In this document: positions 11,298-24,567 of the stretch, in pieces
How positions within the stretch are numbered: position 1 is the stretch's first letter
Layout: each line of letters begins with the position of its first letter
Origin: a virus
IMG/VR virus record: IMGVR_UViG_3300006875_000139
Location: 1 to 25,924 of that record
Strand: one strand, 5' to 3'
DNA: 25,924 nt
Notes under the pieces: model-generated
Databases searched by the model: none
Seen by the model: the letters and a program-made list of their open reading frames with translations, nothing else
What the model was told of the DNA's origin: nothing
Translations under genes and position numbers: made by a program

Positions 11298-12800
11298 TTA
11301 CATGATGCCCATATCATATTGACGATAAGGCATTGTAATTGGTGCTGATGTTTTTTTAATTCTGACTGGCTCGGCAAATGTTAGCGCCAGTGAATCAGCG
11401 TAATCCGGTGATTTGACGCCGCGCTTTTTGGCATCGTCTTTTGATTCCATCAATCGCAATCCGCCGTTAAACTTATAGCGCAATGCAGTTAAATCGGTTC
11501 TAAGCAATCCATCCTTAGGAATTGATACTGGTGTTTTTAACCATTCGCGCATGTCATCCCACATTTTTGCTCGCAAATTATAGTTATACCCGTCATCAAC
11601 TCTGAGTGCCGAATTCACTTCAACGACCAAGCCTTTTTCTGGATAAATGCGCTTTAGCTTATCCACAACACCAGCACCAACACCGATAACATCTATTGCT
11701 ATTTGATCCGGTTTCATAAATGCATCTATTTCAGATTTAACCCGACCCGCTGTATCTTCGGTGTCAGTTTTTCCCCATGATTTCTGCCAAAACACAACGC
11801 GGCCCCGTCGGCAGGTTAAAACGGTTTTATCATCCCCAAACCTAGCAACGTCCAATCCATATTGAACTGGCCCAAGCGCTTCAATATCCGCCACCCCTCG
11901 TCTAGTAGCTGATTCAACTATTGGTGCAGGAATAAATGCATCAGTAATAGATGCCTCGTAATTTCGATCAATTTCTTGCGCAACAATAACTGGATCGAGT
12001 GAATCACATTGTTTCTGGTACCAAGCATCATCTTTGCGCGGATCATCTTTCCAGTCAAAAACAAAAACCTTTATTTTGCCACCATGCCGTTTTCGATAGA
12101 ATGGATTGCCAACACCGTTTGGTGTTGATACATCTATCTTGCAATTTGATGTTTGTGACAAAGCAGCATCAATTGATTCCGGATGCTCATAAAAAGCTGA
12201 TTCATCTTTAAAGTAAATTGCCGTTCTATTGCCTCGACCAATATTGTCACCGGCCTCGCCAGCAATAACAGAATCATTTTCAGGATTGACTATTCGCATG
12301 TGCGGCGCATGTTTGCACTCATCATAGCCAATAGGCTGAAATTCTCTAGGCAAATAGCTGATAAATTGTCTGATTTTCCAAAAAAGTGATTTTGGATCGC
12401 CAATTTTATCAACGTATTCTTCTTTGCGTGAGCCTAATCCAATTACTACGCCCGGCTTAAATAAATACATCCAAGCTGCAATTGCTACGCATAACCAAGA
12501 AACACCCATGTCGCGAGATTTTTCGGCTAAACCATCCTCACGATTTCCCCATAAATTAACAACCCATTCAACAAATTCAGCTTGTTTATCAAACAGCAGA
12601 AACGGAACAATTGTTTCAACACCTATTTCAGCATTTCTAGGATCAAATGTAACGCCCCAATCAGTTATAAATTGGACAGGATTGTCTTTGTAATGCAATT
12701 TTAGCGCGTGCAATATTTCCGGATTGGCGCGAATTCTGTCTAACCTTTCAGCCCTTTCTTTCCATATTGGCGCATAATCAGGATTTTTCCAGTTAATCAT
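11298..12800 (-). CDS. terL: Terminase large subunit
   Basis: A 500-aa packaging motor and nuclease. ATPase motifs: a Walker A-like KSRDMGVS at residues 94-101 (a variant lacking the GKS/T ending), Walker B and catalytic Glu in AIYFKDES at 194-201, and a coupling motif STPNG at 225-229. Nuclease domain: YGLDVARFGDDKT with Asp317, AIDVIGVGAG with Asp370, and SPDYADSLAL with Asp466/Asp469, which together fit the RNase H-like metal site. The start ATG overlaps the stop of the small subunit (ATGA). It works with TerS and the portal to package DNA. Confidence 0.93.
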   Translation of the reverse strand: MINWKNPDYAPIWKERAERLDRIRANPEILHALKLHYKDNPVQFITDWGVTFDPRNAEIGVETIVPFLLFDKQAEFVEWVVNLWGNREDGLAEKSRDMGVSWLCVAIAAWMYLFKPGVVIGLGSRKEEYVDKIGDPKSLFWKIRQFISYLPREFQPIGYDECKHAPHMRIVNPENDSVIAGEAGDNIGRGNRTAIYFKDESAFYEHPESIDAALSQTSNCKIDVSTPNGVGNPFYRKRHGGKIKVFVFDWKDDPRKDDAWYQKQCDSLDPVIVAQEIDRNYEASITDAFIPAPIVESATRRGVADIEALGPVQYGLDVARFGDDKTVLTCRRGRVVFWQKSWGKTDTEDTAGRVKSEIDAFMKPDQIAIDVIGVGAGVVDKLKRIYPEKGLVVEVNSALRVDDGYNYNLRAKMWDDMREWLKTPVSIPKDGLLRTDLTALRYKFNGGLRLMESKDDAKKRGVKSPDYADSLALTFAEPVRIKKTSAPITMPYRQYDMGIM

Positions 12801-16987: not shown

Positions 16988-17284
16988 TTACATTCCTCCA
17001 GCCATTGGGCTTAGGCCTTTTACTGGCGCAGTTTTCTGCATGCCTTGATCAAACATTGACTGTTTTTGCGCTTCATCAGAACGTGATAACAATTTAGCAG
17101 CAATCATTAAAGCAGATTTTAAATCAGGCGCAGGCTGGGCATTTTGTTTTTCCGCTGATTCAGTAGCAGCAGATTCAGGCGCGGATTCTTGGCCCGGTGC
17201 AGCAGACTGCGTTTCTGCCGCTGGTTCATTTTCTTCATAAACGCTAAATTCACCAGTGTCGCTACGTTCAATGCAAACTTTCAT
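16988..17284 (-). CDS. First gene of the late operon, hypothetical (98 aa)
   Basis: It starts MKVCIERSDTGEFSVYEENE and has a Pro/Ala/Glu/Gln-rich linker (residues about 20-55). A short helical part (LKSALMIAAKLLSRSDEAQK) and a Met/Gly-rich end follow. The function is not known. Similar small ORFs occur next to head genes in related phages, as I recall, but no role can be given. A GGAG site lies 9 bases before the ATG. The 5' leader can pair AACTCC with this GGAGTT. Confidence 0.7.
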   Translation of the reverse strand: MKVCIERSDTGEFSVYEENEPAAETQSAAPGQESAPESAATESAEKQNAQPAPDLKSALMIAAKLLSRSDEAQKQSMFDQGMQKTAPVKGLSPMAGGM

Positions 17285-17311
17285 TATGCTAACTCCAAAT
17301 AATTAAATGGG

Positions 17312-17363
17312 CGCTATAGCTGCAATGAGGAGTTGCGACTGACATGCCAGTTTTGCTATAGCG
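17312..17363 (-). promoter_or_regulatory. Structured leader of the late operon (inverted repeats, possible anti-Shine-Dalgarno)
   Basis: CGCTATAGC (17312-17320) and GCTATAGCG (17355-17363) are perfect inverse copies. Each contains the 8-bp palindrome GCTATAGC. Between them are two smaller hairpins: GCAA/TTGC (17322-17325 / 17333-17336) and the near-palindrome ACTGACATGCCAGT (17338-17351). In RNA this would form a three-way junction. The first inner loop holds AACTCC on the minus strand, which is complementary to the GGAGTT ribosome site of the 98-aa gene (17291-17296). It could equally be a set of DNA operator sites. Confidence 0.5.
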
Positions 17364-17394
17364 TTATGCGCGATTATTACACAAATCAATCATA

Positions 17395-17413
17395 AATTGA
17401 ACAATGTTTAATT
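17395..17413. repeat. 19-bp palindromic element, copy 4
   Basis: AATTGAAC-AAT-GTTTAATT lies in the divergent region, 111 bases before the late operon start at 17284 and 52 bases from the plus-strand promoter. A minus-strand TATAAT at 17438-17443 lies just upstream but has no good -35. Confidence 0.75.
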
Positions 17414-17464
17414 GTGACTAGCAAGTTACCAACACAAATTATAAAAAATAATCACAAATTACTA

Positions 17465-17492
17465 TTGACTTATGTCCGGTCAGAACTATAAT
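17465..17492 (+). promoter_or_regulatory. Sigma70-type promoter of the lysis operon
   Basis: TTGACT (17465-17470), a 16-base spacer, and a perfect TATAAT (17487-17492). Transcription should start near 17499, giving a short leader before the GGGGAG site and ATG at 17541. A short TGAC...GTCA dyad spans the -35 and spacer, a possible but weak operator. Confidence 0.85.
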
Positions 17493-17540
17493 ATTAGCCA
17501 TAGATTCGGGATTGTCTTGGATCGTTAAACGGGGAGATTT

Positions 17541-17942
17541 ATGTACGAACACTGTTTTTTTTCTAGATCAAAGAAAATGATTATTGATGGATGTGACGCT
17601 AACAATCTTGGATTGTACAGTCATAAATCACTTGATGATTTTCAGGAAACTTATTTTGATGCTGAGATCATTGATACTGAATTGGCTATTCAGATCCTAG
17701 AAGATTCTAATAGAACACCGGTTACTGAAACTATTAAAGAGAAATATGAATACGCACTAGAAGTATTACCTCCCGAAAACTGGAAAAATATCCCTGATGG
17801 GGATTACTTTCAAATGTCTGAATACTGGTCGGGAAATATTACAACGTATTATGTTAGACAAGGTGATCGTTACTTTACGTTTATGGACAATGCTTGGATG
17901 ACGCCTAAACAAGTTATGGAAAAGCTAAATGAAAACAGATAG
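17541..17942 (+). CDS. Hypothetical protein, first gene of the plus operon (133 aa)
   Basis: A strong GGGGAG ribosome site precedes the ATG. The protein is acidic in the middle (AEIIDTELAIQILEDSN) and then has VLPPENWKNIPDGDYFQMSE, continuing TYYVRQGDRYFTF. This second half recalls the plasmid/phage DUF1419-type pattern (LPP..W, then MSE, then a GDRY strand), but I am not sure of the match. The function is unknown. As the first gene from a strong promoter it could be expressed early. Its end overlaps the next small gene by 14 bases. Confidence 0.75.
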   Translation: MYEHCFFSRSKKMIIDGCDANNLGLYSHKSLDDFQETYFDAEIIDTELAIQILEDSNRTPVTETIKEKYEYALEVLPPENWKNIPDGDYFQMSEYWSGNITTYYVRQGDRYFTFMDNAWMTPKQVMEKLNENR

Positions 17943-19487: not shown

Positions 19488-19617
19488 CGTCTAATAATCC
19501 ATTCACAAAAGAATCAACCGTTTCACACGCCAATAAAAAAATAGCGGTTAATACTGAGATAGTTAATATAGCTATCTCAGCAATGCTAATCAAAATAATG
19601 TTAGCAAACCGCATCAT
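19480..19617 (-). CDS. Small single-helix membrane protein (45 aa)
   Basis: ATG at 19617, five bases after the stop of the dUTPase-fold gene; stop at 19480. The sequence starts MMRFANIILISIAEIAILTI and continues SVLTAIFLLACET, one long hydrophobic segment, then an acidic tail ending LLDDE. Ribosome site weak; coupling with the upstream gene is likely. The support is the tight gene packing and the clean frame. The function is unknown. Confidence 0.5.
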   Translation of the reverse strand: MMRFANIILISIAEIAILTISVLTAIFLLACETVDSFVNGLLDDE

Positions 19618-19622
19618 TTACG

Positions 19623-20066
19623 CTATACGCCTGTTGATCCAAATCCGCCACTTCCTCTATCCGACGGGCTTAACTCAGAAACGGTAATAAATTTAGCTTT
19701 CATCACAGGGGCGATAACGCCTTGGGCTATTTTCATGCCGCGAGTAATAACAAAATCTTTATACCCGTGGTTGATTAAAATGACGCCAATCTCGCCGCGA
19801 AATCCGGCATACACGGTTCCCGGGCTATTAAGAACAACAATTCCATTTTTTAATGCCAACCCAGAACGTGACCTTACTTGTAACTCATAACCAGCAGGTA
19901 CGGCAACGGAAATACCCGTAGGAATGCAAACAATATTTCCAACATCTAACACTATTCCAAAAGGATTGTTTGCAATTAAATCAAATCCAGAATCAAATTC
20001 ATGCGCATATTCCGGAATTGCTACGGATTCATCAAGAAGCTTTAATTCTACATCAATGTTGAACAT
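19623..20066 (-). CDS. dut: dUTPase-fold protein with altered motif III
   Basis: The start at 20066 gives 147 aa, the usual dUTPase length, and has AGAGGA 8 bases upstream; 20075 is an alternative ATG. Motifs in order: DSGFDLIA (25-32), RSRSGLA (65-71), NSPGTVYAGFRGE (80-92), RGMKIAQGVI (109-118) and RGSGGFGSTG (137-146). In active trimeric dUTPases motif III reads G-T-(I/V)-D-x-(D/G)-(Y/F)-R-G-E, and its Asp positions the attacking water. Here residue 86 is Tyr (codon TAT). A single G-to-T change would convert Asp GAT to this codon. The activity may be lost or changed, or it may bind dUTP without cutting it. It shares an operon with the MazG-like protein. Confidence 0.83.
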   Translation of the reverse strand: MFNIDVELKLLDESVAIPEYAHEFDSGFDLIANNPFGIVLDVGNIVCIPTGISVAVPAGYELQVRSRSGLALKNGIVVLNSPGTVYAGFRGEIGVILINHGYKDFVITRGMKIAQGVIAPVMKAKFITVSELSPSDRGSGGFGSTGV

Positions 20067-21029: not shown

Positions 21030-21049
21030 TTGATTATCCCGTTTGTTAT

Positions 21050-21128
21050 CCCCGTTAGGCGCTTCGCCCTAGACCATAAACGGGGGAAAGGCTAACCCAA
21101 GCAGGACTAGGACTTGGGCGGGCGAAGC
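21050..21128 (-). promoter_or_regulatory. Structured leader with pseudoknot potential
   Basis: GCTTCGCCC (21061-21069) and GGGCGAAGC (21120-21128) are a perfect 9-bp inverted repeat. It encloses CCCAAG/CTTGGG (21096-21101 / 21113-21118). A third pair, CCCCGTT (21050-21056) with AACGGGG (21079-21085), crosses the 9-bp pair, so the two together form a pseudoknot topology. GTTATCCCCGTT nearly repeats the TTATCCCGTT at 21034-21043. The whole region lies in the gap between ssb and the winged-helix-like gene, transcribed on the minus strand. There is no T run, so it is not a terminator. Confidence 0.5.
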
Positions 21129-21135
21129 TGGTGTT

Positions 21136-21164
21136 ATTGTATCAGGCTTAATATGCAATGTGGA
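21136..21164 (-). promoter_or_regulatory. Weak promoter candidate upstream of the winged-helix-like gene
   Basis: On the minus strand TCCACA (21159-21164), a 17-base spacer, and TACAAT (21136-21141): 4/6 and 5/6 matches to sigma70. It would transcribe the structured leader at 21050-21128. Such a match can occur by chance in A+T-rich DNA. Confidence 0.3.
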
Positions 21165-21166
21165 GC

Positions 21167-21586
21167 CTAAAAAAGTATATCCAAGTCGAAATCATCGTAG
21201 CTTTCTCCTTGTTGGTTGCTTGATGCTTGTTCATGCGATTGATTTGACGGTTCTGCTTGATCTTTTTTGCTACCAAGCAAATTTATATTGCTAGCATTAA
21301 TAACCGTTTTATATTTTTTTTCACCGTCTTTTTCCCATGATTGATATTCAATCGAACCCTCAATAGCTAGCTGCGATCCTTTTTTTACATAGTCGCCAGC
21401 AATCTTGGCTGTTTGGCCAAACGTCACAATATTGTGCCACTGCGTTGATTCTTTTTTTTCTCCGGTATTTTTATCCGTCCATCGTTGGCTTGTCGCAAGC
21501 GTAAAGTTTGTTATTTGCGCCCCGCTTGGTGTAAACCTGCTTTCTGGGTCTTGCCCTACTCTGCCTATCAATATTGTTTTATTCAT
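21167..21586 (-). CDS. ssb: Single-stranded DNA-binding protein
   Basis: A 139-aa protein. The N-terminal OB fold (residues 1-105) starts MNKTILIGRVGQDPESRFTP and includes TNFTLATSQRWTDKNTGEKK and WHNIVTFGQTAKIAGDYVKK. A flexible Gln/Ser-rich linker follows, then an acidic tip DDFDLDILF, which is the SSB interaction tail (a variant of DDDIPF). It protects and presents ssDNA for Bet annealing. Its ATG overlaps the stop of the exonuclease gene (ATGA). Confidence 0.93.
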   Translation of the reverse strand: MNKTILIGRVGQDPESRFTPSGAQITNFTLATSQRWTDKNTGEKKESTQWHNIVTFGQTAKIAGDYVKKGSQLAIEGSIEYQSWEKDGEKKYKTVINASNINLLGSKKDQAEPSNQSHEQASSNQQGESYDDFDLDILF

Positions 21587-23280
21587 GATTTACGTCCAAA
21601 TTCTTTAATTAACAATGCTTCTGCTTCTTGATCAACTAAATCAAAATATTCTCGAACCAGTCTAATGATTATAGTTCTATCTGATGGAAGCGATGGTGAC
21701 TCATCAATGAAAAGCTTAGAAGTATCAGCTTCAATCTTTTGATTTTCATTTTGTTTGGCAAAAAGTTTTTCTTCTGCAGCTGCCGCAAAAGCCTCTTTTG
21801 CCTCTTGAGATTCTTTTAAAATCCTAAGCCTTTCTTCCCGATTGACTCGCTCTAATTCTGCTTGCTCTGCTTTTAGCTTTTCATTGGCTTCTCTTTGAAT
21901 TTTTTCTTGCTCAACTCTAAGCTTTTCAGCGGCTTCACACTCTGCCTTGGCTTTTTCCTCGGCAGCAATGCGCAAACGTTCTTGTTCTAACCGCTCTGCT
22001 TCGGCTTTTTTATGTTGCTCAATTCTGGTGGAAATAATCAATTGCAAATCATCAAGCGGCTTATAGATGATAGTCTGCAAATCATTAAACAAAAAACTGT
22101 ATTCAACAGCATTATCAGCCATAAATTTTAGCTTTTCATTAATATTGCGTGCAATTTGTGTTGCCTGAATTTTAGCGTTAGCTACCTCTGTATTTACGGC
22201 ATTGCGCAAGCTATCAATGGTGCGCTTATTTTTCATTGCGCTAGCCAAATCAGGGTCTTGAACAATTAACTGGATACCCTTAATGTTTGATTGCAAATCA
22301 GTTTTATGTTTTAACCAATCTGACTCACCAGCCAGCTTAATTTCAATCTTAATTGATTGCTCTCTTGTTTTAACCAGCTTGTCAATTTCAAGTCGTTTGG
22401 ATCGCAACTCAGCTTTAACATCGTCAATTGTTCTGATTGCCAACTCAATATCAGAAGTTTGCGCCAAAATTGCGCTTTTTTGGGCTTCAAGTCGCTCTTC
22501 GCCGTCTTGCGCAAATTTCACAAATGCTTTTGCATTAACGAAATCTTGATCAGTTTGCAAGTCGGTATTAACTGATTTAATAAATCCAATTGCCGCTTGT
22601 TTAAATTGAGGCAAGTTGGATTGAACTACTTCGCCGCGAGTAATTACGGACAGCGCTGGCAATTGTGGAATTGCCTCAGCTACCACCTCGGCTACTGGCT
22701 CGACAACAACAAAAGATTCTAGATCAATATCAAACTGTTCCCATCCGTTCTTAATACGATCAAACCAAGCATTATCAGGATCAATACCAACCCATGCTGT
22801 ATTAGCTTCTGTTCCATCGGATACTGTGAAATAAATGGAATTAGCACCCGTAACCATTAAAACTTGTTGACATTGCGCCATATAATATTCAGGTATAACG
22901 CCTGTTTTTACGCCATCAAACAATGATTGATTAAACTGTTTACATTCAAACGCAATAGCTTCATCCATTGTAATCCCGTCACAGGATGCAGACATTTTGC
23001 CTAATGAGTAAACAACTGGATATAAATCATCTTCGATATACCTTTCCAGCATTTCACGCGCTAACGGCTCCACACGATGCCCTTCAGCAAAAATCACTTT
23101 CTCAACAAAATCACTAAATTCTTTGGGTAATCCAGTTTTTTTGATTTGCAATAATTCATCGCGTTTTGCAAATGGCGATATGCCAAGCATGACAGCAGCT
23201 TCGCTTGCGCCGTTGTGGTTTATTCTAAAATCAAGCCATTCTTGAGTGCCTTGAACTAAGTTATGTATTTGTTTAATCAT
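21583..23280 (-). CDS. YqaJ-type phage exonuclease with long coiled-coil C-terminus
   Basis: The start at 23280 (ATG, with GGAA 8 bases upstream) gives 565 aa; a longer form from a TTG at 23301 is possible. The N-terminal PD-(D/E)XK nuclease of YqaJ type has QGTQEWLDFRINHNGASEAA (10-29), EGHRVEP (66-72), an Asp101 in ASCDGIT, the Glu112/Lys114 pair in FECKQF, and YMAQCQQVLMVTG (133-145). The remaining 370 or so residues are mostly helical. They include a strong coiled coil near 430-530 rich in Glu, Ala, Lys and Arg (EAERLEQERLRIAAEEKAKA). A typical YqaJ protein is far shorter. It would make 3' single strands for the Bet annealase encoded upstream. Confidence 0.85.
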   Translation of the reverse strand: MIKQIHNLVQGTQEWLDFRINHNGASEAAVMLGISPFAKRDELLQIKKTGLPKEFSDFVEKVIFAEGHRVEPLAREMLERYIEDDLYPVVYSLGKMSASCDGITMDEAIAFECKQFNQSLFDGVKTGVIPEYYMAQCQQVLMVTGANSIYFTVSDGTEANTAWVGIDPDNAWFDRIKNGWEQFDIDLESFVVVEPVAEVVAEAIPQLPALSVITRGEVVQSNLPQFKQAAIGFIKSVNTDLQTDQDFVNAKAFVKFAQDGEERLEAQKSAILAQTSDIELAIRTIDDVKAELRSKRLEIDKLVKTREQSIKIEIKLAGESDWLKHKTDLQSNIKGIQLIVQDPDLASAMKNKRTIDSLRNAVNTEVANAKIQATQIARNINEKLKFMADNAVEYSFLFNDLQTIIYKPLDDLQLIISTRIEQHKKAEAERLEQERLRIAAEEKAKAECEAAEKLRVEQEKIQREANEKLKAEQAELERVNREERLRILKESQEAKEAFAAAAEEKLFAKQNENQKIEADTSKLFIDESPSLPSDRTIIIRLVREYFDLVDQEAEALLIKEFGRKS

Positions 23281-24097
23281 TTTCGTGATTCCATGAGTCA
23301 ATTTCGTTTTCCTGCTCGTTAGTCAATATAGCTTTTGAACTGACAACATCAATAATTTGTTGTGTGGTTTTTTTTCCCATTAATACAGCCTCTCTCCACT
23401 TGGCTTTGTTTTGATTAAATTTATCTTCTGGATAGAAATCCAATGCCGCAGGTTGCTGTACAGTATCTATTTGCGCTTGGTAATTAAACTGAGAATCCTC
23501 AATTATTTTGCCTTCCATTTCATCTGATGTTGGTTGTGATCCAAGTTCTGGGAATGCTTTCCGCAAGGCCTGAGCCTCTGCGCATTTCGCTATTTGTGCA
23601 TAAGGTCGCCTGCTCCACATTGCATTGGGCGCAATAGATTTATCTTTCCCGCCTTTAGTTGCGTAGTTTTCTTTCCATCGTTCCGTAGCTGTAAATTCAG
23701 CCACAATGCCGTTACCCATTAATCTCTTTACAGTGATTCGACACCAAGCCGGGTATGTTATTTGTTGGCCGCCAATTATCTCGGTCACATCTTCCCCATA
23801 CTCTGCGTCACTTACTCCGGCATATTCTCCGGATCGCGCAGCCTGCGTTCTATATGATCCAATACCGGGCATAATTACATCACGCATTCCACCCACTTTT
23901 GCGTCATACATAGGCACAATGTGAACAGGCTTTTGAATTGGGTCTAAGCCAGCGGCTCTGCAGTACCCTAAAACAAGTTTAATTGAGCCATCTTGTGCGC
24001 CCGGGTATAAACTGCTTTTTAATACATTAATTAGCTCATCTTCCGACATTGCAGACGACGGCAGATTTTGTTTCTTGCTTTGAACTAAATCATTCAT
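23273..24097 (-). CDS. bet: Bet / RecT-family ssDNA annealing protein
   Basis: The start at 24097 (MNDLVQSKKQNLPS) is chosen for its strong GGGGGAA site; the open frame reaches 24148 but would run into the terminator. The 274-aa protein has LVLGYCRAAGLDPIQKPVHI, then GGMRDVIMPGIGSYRTQAAR, GEYAGVSDAEYGED, and ending region YAQIAKCAEAQALRKAFPEL. These are hallmarks of the lambda Bet/RecT annealases. It anneals single strands made by the YqaJ nuclease, helped by SSB. The three genes are consecutive. An RNA terminator ends three bases before its ribosome site. Confidence 0.9.
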   Translation of the reverse strand: MNDLVQSKKQNLPSSAMSEDELINVLKSSLYPGAQDGSIKLVLGYCRAAGLDPIQKPVHIVPMYDAKVGGMRDVIMPGIGSYRTQAARSGEYAGVSDAEYGEDVTEIIGGQQITYPAWCRITVKRLMGNGIVAEFTATERWKENYATKGGKDKSIAPNAMWSRRPYAQIAKCAEAQALRKAFPELGSQPTSDEMEGKIIEDSQFNYQAQIDTVQQPAALDFYPEDKFNQNKAKWREAVLMGKKTTQQIIDVVSSKAILTNEQENEIDSWNHEND

Positions 24098-24112
24098 TTT
24101 TATTTCCCCCAT

Positions 24113-24161
24113 AAAAAAAGCCCTAAACACTGCATGGTCGAGATGCACTGGATAGGGCTTT
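24113..24161 (-). terminator. Intrinsic terminator (P3) before bet
   Basis: A 9-bp stem AAAGCCCTA / TAGGGCTTT, then seven T in the minus-strand sense. It ends three bases before the GGGGGAA site of bet, so bet mRNA from upstream must read through it. AAAGCCC occurs a second time (24170-24176) and can pair with the same GGGCTTT arm, which would break the terminator. Confidence 0.85.
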
Positions 24162-24217
24162 AAGCCGATGGGCTTTGGTGTATATCAATCTCGACCATTG
24201 AACACCAAAACCCACGA
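24113..24217 (-). ncRNA. Kissing-loop RNA: small RNA or attenuator upstream of bet
   Basis: A predicted RNA of about 105 nt between the DUF1064-like gene and bet. Read 5'-3' on the minus strand: hairpin P1 has stems TTTGGTGT/ACACCAAA (24202-24209 with 24174-24181) and TCAAT/ATTGA, and loop GGUCGAG (24190-24196). A short GGCTT/AAGCC hairpin follows. Hairpin P3 has stem AAAGCCCTA/TAGGGCTTT (24153-24161 with 24117-24125), inner stem TGCAT/ATGCA, and loop CUCGACC (24136-24142). The two 7-nt loops are perfectly complementary; complementarity extends to 11 bases with the closing stem bases. A run of seven U ends P3. It matches no RNA family that I recognise. Whether it is a free small RNA or only the bet leader is open. 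Confidence 0.65.
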
Positions 24218-24222
24218 TTTTT

Positions 24223-24251
24223 ATTTTACATCAATAAAATTTAAACCTCAA
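24223..24251 (-). promoter_or_regulatory. Promoter candidate for the kissing-loop RNA
   Basis: On the minus strand TTGAGG (24246-24251), a 17-base spacer, and TAAAAT (24223-24228). The expected start near 24216-24218 lies just upstream of hairpin P1. The -35 lies in the last codons of the DUF1064-like gene. Match is 4/6 and 5/6, so it is a candidate only. Confidence 0.5.
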
Positions 24252-24567
24252 TAATTTTGATACCATGAAACCATAGCATAAGTTTCTTTTTCAGCCTATA
24301 AACAGGCAGCTTTCGTGTAAATTCTGATTTAACATCAACAACAACTTCTCTATCTTTTTTGCGGTCATAATAAGAAAAATCGGCCACATAATGCGCAGCT
24401 CTTTCGCCATCCTGTTTTGGTATTAATAGATACTTTTCCTGTCGCCGCAGATTTTCTATTTCTCCGGCATCCTGCTTGCTTTTCAAAATTAACCAAAATT
24501 CATATTCTTTCTTACTGTCAAAAACCACTCCATCGCGAAGAATCTTTTTATTTCTATATTTGCTCAT
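24241..24567 (-). CDS. DUF1064-like protein, nuclease-like
   Basis: A 108-aa protein with the family pattern: MSKYRNKKILRDGVVFDSKK, EYEFWLILKSKQDAGEIENL, then YVADFSYYDRKKDREVVVDV, KSEFTRKLPVYRLKKKL. The Glu near 22, Asp63, and the Asp-Val-Lys (VDVKS) near 78-80 could form a PD-(D/E)XK-like metal site (D-x-K). I recall this as DUF1064, common in phage recombination modules and often compared with Holliday junction or VRR-type nucleases. The start overlaps the upstream stop (ATGA). Confidence 0.78.
   Translation of the reverse strand: MSKYRNKKILRDGVVFDSKKEYEFWLILKSKQDAGEIENLRRQEKYLLIPKQDGERAAHYVADFSYYDRKKDREVVVDVKSEFTRKLPVYRLKKKLMLWFHGIKIIEV

Follow-up and report, generated by a model that had tools for sequence, protein, structure and literature searches.

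What occupies the gap between DUF1064 and bet in this phage, and what could it do for the genes that follow? The window, by which we mean the whole stretch of 25,924 nucleotides that was analysed, is a 25.9-kb virus record of a tailed phage with a G+C content of 40%, and the record is probably incomplete. On its minus strand the genes run in the order NinB, HNH, an 85-aa protein, DUF1064, bet (RecT family), a RecE-like exonuclease and ssb, every one of them in the same orientation. About 140 bases separate the stop of DUF1064 from the start of bet, and it is this gap that contains a two-hairpin element (Table 1).

Table 1 The two-hairpin element, its parts and the genes around it (positions in the window)
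Feature	Positions	Strand	Evidence and remarks
DUF1064 (Holliday-junction-resolvase-like), directly upstream of the element, same direction	24241..24567	-	Pfam PF06356, E 6e-17; PHROG 190
Promoter-like site TTGAGG-17-TAAAAT, overlapping the DUF1064 stop codon	24223..24251	-	Consensus 9/12, weak
Hairpin 1: long basal stem with one U-G pair, 3-nt bulge UAU, 5-bp apical stem, 7-nt loop	24166..24216	-	-25.6 kcal/mol, z -5.2
Loop 1, GGUCGAG	24190..24196	-	Unpaired in minimum free energy and centroid folds
GGCU-UAA-AGCC, a weak hairpin of 4 bp that shares bases with the 5' arm of the terminator	24156..24166	-	Excluded once the terminator has formed
Hairpin 2 (terminator stem): 9 bp, 2x2 internal loop, 2 bp, 1x1 mismatch, 5 bp, 7-nt loop	24117..24161	-	-21.7 kcal/mol, z -6.4 for 24113-24161
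Loop 2, CUCGACC, fully complementary to loop 1	24136..24142	-	Fold
U7 tract of the terminator; its first three U pair within the stem	24113..24119	-	Sequence, fold
Ribosome site of bet, GGGGG, two bases past the U7 tract	24106..24110	-	Sequence
bet, RecT-family single-strand annealing protein, first gene downstream of the terminator	23273..24097	-	Pfam RecT PF03837, E 3e-23; PHROG single strand annealing protein, E 4e-95
RecE-like exonuclease, second gene downstream of the terminator	21583..23301	-	PHROG 7655, E 8e-154
Single-strand DNA-binding protein (ssb), third gene downstream of the terminator	21167..21586	-	PHROG 44, E 2e-48

A preliminary description of the locus had reported two minus-strand hairpins with complementary 7-nt loops, both closed by U-A pairs, and we find each of these elements where it was placed. 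Folding of the minus-strand RNA between 24217 and 24113 (105 nt) gives -47.7 kcal/mol (z -7.4), a value equalled by none of 200 shuffles, and the minimum free energy and centroid structures are in agreement. Both hairpins are outliers when folded singly as well. In a sliding fold scan of the whole window, the intervals covering the two-hairpin region rank among the strongest. On the plus strand (24168-24220) the same hairpin 1 reaches -17.7 kcal/mol, compared with -25.6 kcal/mol on the minus strand, because the U-G pair turns into a mismatch there; this is a mild argument for an RNA made from the operon strand rather than a hairpin of DNA.

The loop match sits within an 11-nt perfect inverted repeat (24134-24144 and 24188-24198). 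Given two 7-nt loops, the probability of perfect Watson-Crick complementarity is 6e-5. We then defined a loop pair as two neighbouring hairpins with at least seven complementary loop bases, both loops being unpaired in the predicted structure. Dinucleotide shuffles of the region give 18 passes in 20,000, and other loci, amounting to 3.13 Mb on both strands, yield five distinct passes, all weaker and none resembling the element. The z-scores, the shuffle counts and the loop-match probability together confirm the structural observation: the structure is real, strong and more than a product of chance, while its job can only be inferred. No tRNA was found at the element, nor any Rfam RNA at gathering thresholds; the best sub-threshold Rfam match is Phe_leader, with 24.5 bits against the 55 needed, and membership in any RNA family is not established.

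Other structured sites of the window were seen in passing. A second long gap of the operon, between ssb and a DnaD-like gene (21030-21166), carries GCTTCGCCC/GGGCGAAGC, the 9-nt arms of a perfect inverted repeat separated by 50 nt, as well as a hairpin formed by CCCAAG and CTTGGG, its overall fold being not above shuffles (z -0.4). The large divergent intergenic region at 17280-17545 contains the inverted repeats CGCTATAGC/GCTATAGCG, 34 nt apart, and a near-consensus plus-strand promoter, TTGACT-16-TATAAT (by eye), facing a 133-aa ORF. The strongest fold of the sliding scan (z = -5.6) belongs to the plus-strand interval starting at 19501; in this part of the window (19490-19640) a 12-bp hairpin, CTGAGATAGTTA/TAGCTATCTCAG, lies just beyond the end of the dUTPase gene.

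Hairpin 2 is a credible intrinsic (Rho-independent) terminator placed directly before bet, as had been proposed from its 9-bp stem and U7: a stable hairpin (-21.7 kcal/mol) is immediately followed by a U tract. The tract overlaps the last three paired bases of the stem, so four U are free. Between the terminator and bet no consensus promoter-like site was found, hence bet, the RecE-like nuclease and ssb should need read-through, whether through leakiness of the terminator or through phage antitermination, in support of the dependence suggested for these three genes at the outset. Among the operon proteins scanned, none was recognised as an antiterminator.

A promoter of its own had also been ascribed to the element. 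The site TTGAGG-17-TAAAAT is indeed present and would place the transcript start near 24216, but a 9/12 match is not above chance: the region holds 13 sites of this class, fewer than the shuffle mean of 19.8, which makes the promoter candidate weak.

The idea that the RNA is switchable, with loop pairing locking or releasing the terminator, finds no support in the folds. A nested 11-bp alternative, in which the loop regions are paired, reaches -26.8 kcal/mol versus -47.7 kcal/mol, i.e. it is 21 kcal/mol worse, and no antiterminator of comparable stability, as expected of an attenuator or riboswitch, accompanies the terminator. A kiss between the loops keeps both stems intact, and so alone it would neither lock nor release the terminator. 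Competition of the GGCU-UAA-AGCC hairpin with the terminator stem had been overstated, since its 4 bp are seen only in a fold without the 3' arm of the terminator. Pairing of the 3' arm with the first AAAGCCC would again give a hairpin ahead of U7. With the nested helix costly, the stem intact under the kiss and the AAAGCCC pairing again terminator-like, no two-state switch is visible. A leader-peptide attenuator was considered separately and rejected: short ORFs, e.g. MVEIDIHQSPSA, have neither a clear ribosome site nor a run of a single residue.

We looked for relatives of the element by sequence, by pattern and by structure. Searches with blastn in phages, plasmids and E. coli genomes returned chance-level matches only. 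A first pattern with both loops fixed had no match in viral contigs, and a second one matched 37 viral stretches, none of which folds with both loops open in two separate hairpins. When the stem of hairpin 1 was fixed and its loop left free, 96 viral stretches were recovered; a second complementary loop was absent from all 80 loci checked. One pattern scan was genome-wide, and its 14 stretches are long palindromes repeated in Hymenobacter, together with unrelated sequences.

The Hymenobacter genomes (L067-L070, L072, L075-L077, L079) hold many copies of this long near-perfect palindrome (GTCATGTCGAGCTGGTCGAGACATCTCGC...), several of them beside T runs; it resembles a dispersed repeat or a terminator family and is unrelated to the two-hairpin RNA.

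A covariance model found no match outside the window in 82 source sequences, none in 369 genomes of one class or 9 genomes of one order, and none in 33 related phage records, negatives that are limited by a model built on one sequence, by a host that is not identified and by collections from which near-identical records may be missing. Among relatives gathered via Bet, RecE, DUF1064 and terminase, a scan for any hairpin pair with complementary loops found none like the element. The element is thus an orphan, with no homologue in any collection searched.

Relatives of Bet itself are many, with identities of about 50-73%. In 90 of them the median distance from bet to the upstream gene is 8 nt, which makes the element lineage-specific; most have no gap and no terminator before bet, and very few show a terminator-like signal. 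In the related loci L010/L129 (the same contig) and L009, we noted by eye a different, unrelated terminator just before bet: GGCCGCC-TAA-GCGGCC followed by a T run, with TAA in the loop.

Among known systems, the closest characterised layout (promoter, structured RNA, terminator, coding sequence) is that of IsrK in the Salmonella prophage Gifsy-1, where partial read-through of the small RNA's terminator yields an mRNA on which the short RNA acts in trans (PMC4825925). Both are phage operons with a Rho-independent terminator directly ahead of coding genes in the same direction, and downstream expression depends on read-through in IsrK and is predicted to do so here. For the promoter part of this layout the candidate is the 9/12 site, of a class rarer in the region than in shuffles. 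The two systems differ in that no sequence relation was detected and that recombination genes lie downstream here, orf45-anrP in the case of IsrK. Furthermore, IsrK rearranges its helices (PMC4825925), whereas the sole competing fold tested here is 21 kcal/mol less stable than the best one.

The putRNA of phage HK022, a cis antiterminator of about 70 nt with two tandem stem-loops (PMC9378689), is similar in having two long tandem stem-loops near a presumed early promoter of a phage operon. Unlike putRNA, the RNA described here has 105 nt and its second hairpin is followed by U7, which makes it terminator-like and sets it apart from that class. To our knowledge, no terminator U tract follows the stem-loops of HK022 put.

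We now propose, with middling confidence, that the element is a structured leader whose predicted intrinsic terminator gates read-through into bet-recE-ssb and releases an RNA of about 105 nt. RNA polymerase would arrive either by transcribing the replication/recombination operon upstream or after starting at a promoter near 24220. The majority of it would halt at 24113, freeing the stable RNA, and bet, recE and ssb would be made only by the read-through fraction or by polymerase that phage antitermination carries past the stop. The two matching loops may pair with each other, compacting and protecting the RNA, or may, by analogy with IsrK, let the freed RNA bind through its loops to the corresponding hairpins of the read-through mRNA; they would not toggle the terminator by alternative base pairing. 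Consistent with such a leader are the fold and shuffle outliers, a U tract ending two bases short of the ribosome site, the lack of a consensus promoter between terminator and bet, the greater stability of hairpin 1 as minus-strand RNA, the co-oriented genes from NinB to ssb, the IsrK precedent and the unrelated terminators seen before bet in L010/L129 and L009. Against it stand a promoter not above chance, the lack of any homologue found and the fact that most Bet relatives are without a terminator at this place.

It is possible, though we consider it unlikely, that the element is instead an independent trans-acting small RNA: transcribed from a promoter near 24220 as a 105-nt molecule, it would have its targets elsewhere, in host or phage, with a seed within one loop, and its position before bet would be incidental. 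A compact two-hairpin RNA with a U-tailed terminator and a suitably spaced promoter-like site fits this description, and small structured two-hairpin RNAs of the FinP and FinO/ProQ group do act through kissing loops (PMC9977716). FinP is antisense to its target; here, a scan of the operon proteins found no FinO/ProQ gene, and the RNA matches no Rfam family. The below-chance promoter count also speaks against a separate transcript, as does the distribution of the loop sequences: GGTCGAG has no further plus-strand copy in the window, and CTCGACC has one, at 12233, within the large-terminase gene.

In ColE1, RNA I and RNA II interact through fully complementary 7-nt kissing loops, carried by sense and antisense RNAs from opposite strands. 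The loops described here are of the same length and full complementarity, whereas both belong to one transcript. In a rather improbable alternative, kissing itself is the regulatory event: the released RNA would dimerise or pair in trans with the mRNA made by read-through, and feed its dose back on bet. The seven perfect loop-loop pairs are worth -10.7 kcal/mol (-16.4 kcal/mol for the 11-bp version), each loop caps a 5-bp apical stem with a bulge or mismatch beneath it, and the loop match is the rare event computed above. By a crude triangle estimate, an intramolecular kiss needs bends of about 120-135 degrees at the bulge and mismatch joints, which makes intermolecular pairing at least as plausible. 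On the other hand, no antisense or trans partner was seen, and the terminator stem stays intact under pairing, which leaves the output of the switch unspecified. A plus-strand antisense RNA was also considered and rejected, there being no consensus promoter on that strand in the first part of bet. A self-complementary kissing-loop attenuator, in which the dose of leader RNA would control the recombination operon with no antisense gene, looks no better than a long shot; the terminated leader would then pair, loop to loop, with itself or with the copy of the leader that the read-through mRNA carries.

That the gap holds mobile or repeat DNA, i.e. a REP-pair-like or MITE-like hairpin pair inserted between DUF1064 and bet, is highly improbable. 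Two hairpins of inverted orientation are built around a common 11-nt core, copies of a 10-nt direct repeat, AAATAAAAAT, lie on either side of the element on the minus strand (from 24226 and from 24105), and relatives are usually gapless at the same place. Yet the element is single-copy in the window, and no second copy was found in phages, plasmids, E. coli, viral contigs or sampled genomes. The U-G pair of hairpin 1 favours RNA over DNA, AAATAAAAAT is A-rich, and the window has four 10-mer repeats at such spacing. Deletion between the AAATAAAAAT copies would strip bet of its ribosome site, which reduces insertion to a minor rival. The repeat itself (24096-24226) may be a trace of insertion or merely A-rich spacers.

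Phage operons commonly carry strong terminators. The least probable reading, an ordinary tandem hairpin terminator whose loop complementarity is coincidental, would make the loop match the sole unusual part, found after many patterns had been examined in the preliminary description, and it is hard to reconcile with the loop-match probability and the few region shuffles that pass.

Altogether, the element is well defined but stands alone, and its place in the operon makes regulatory sense. A structured terminator dedicated to bet implies a control point for the timing of recombination-protein production. Should the loop pairing turn out to be functional, the element would achieve within a single transcript the kind of loop-loop control for which sense-antisense pairs of plasmids are otherwise known.
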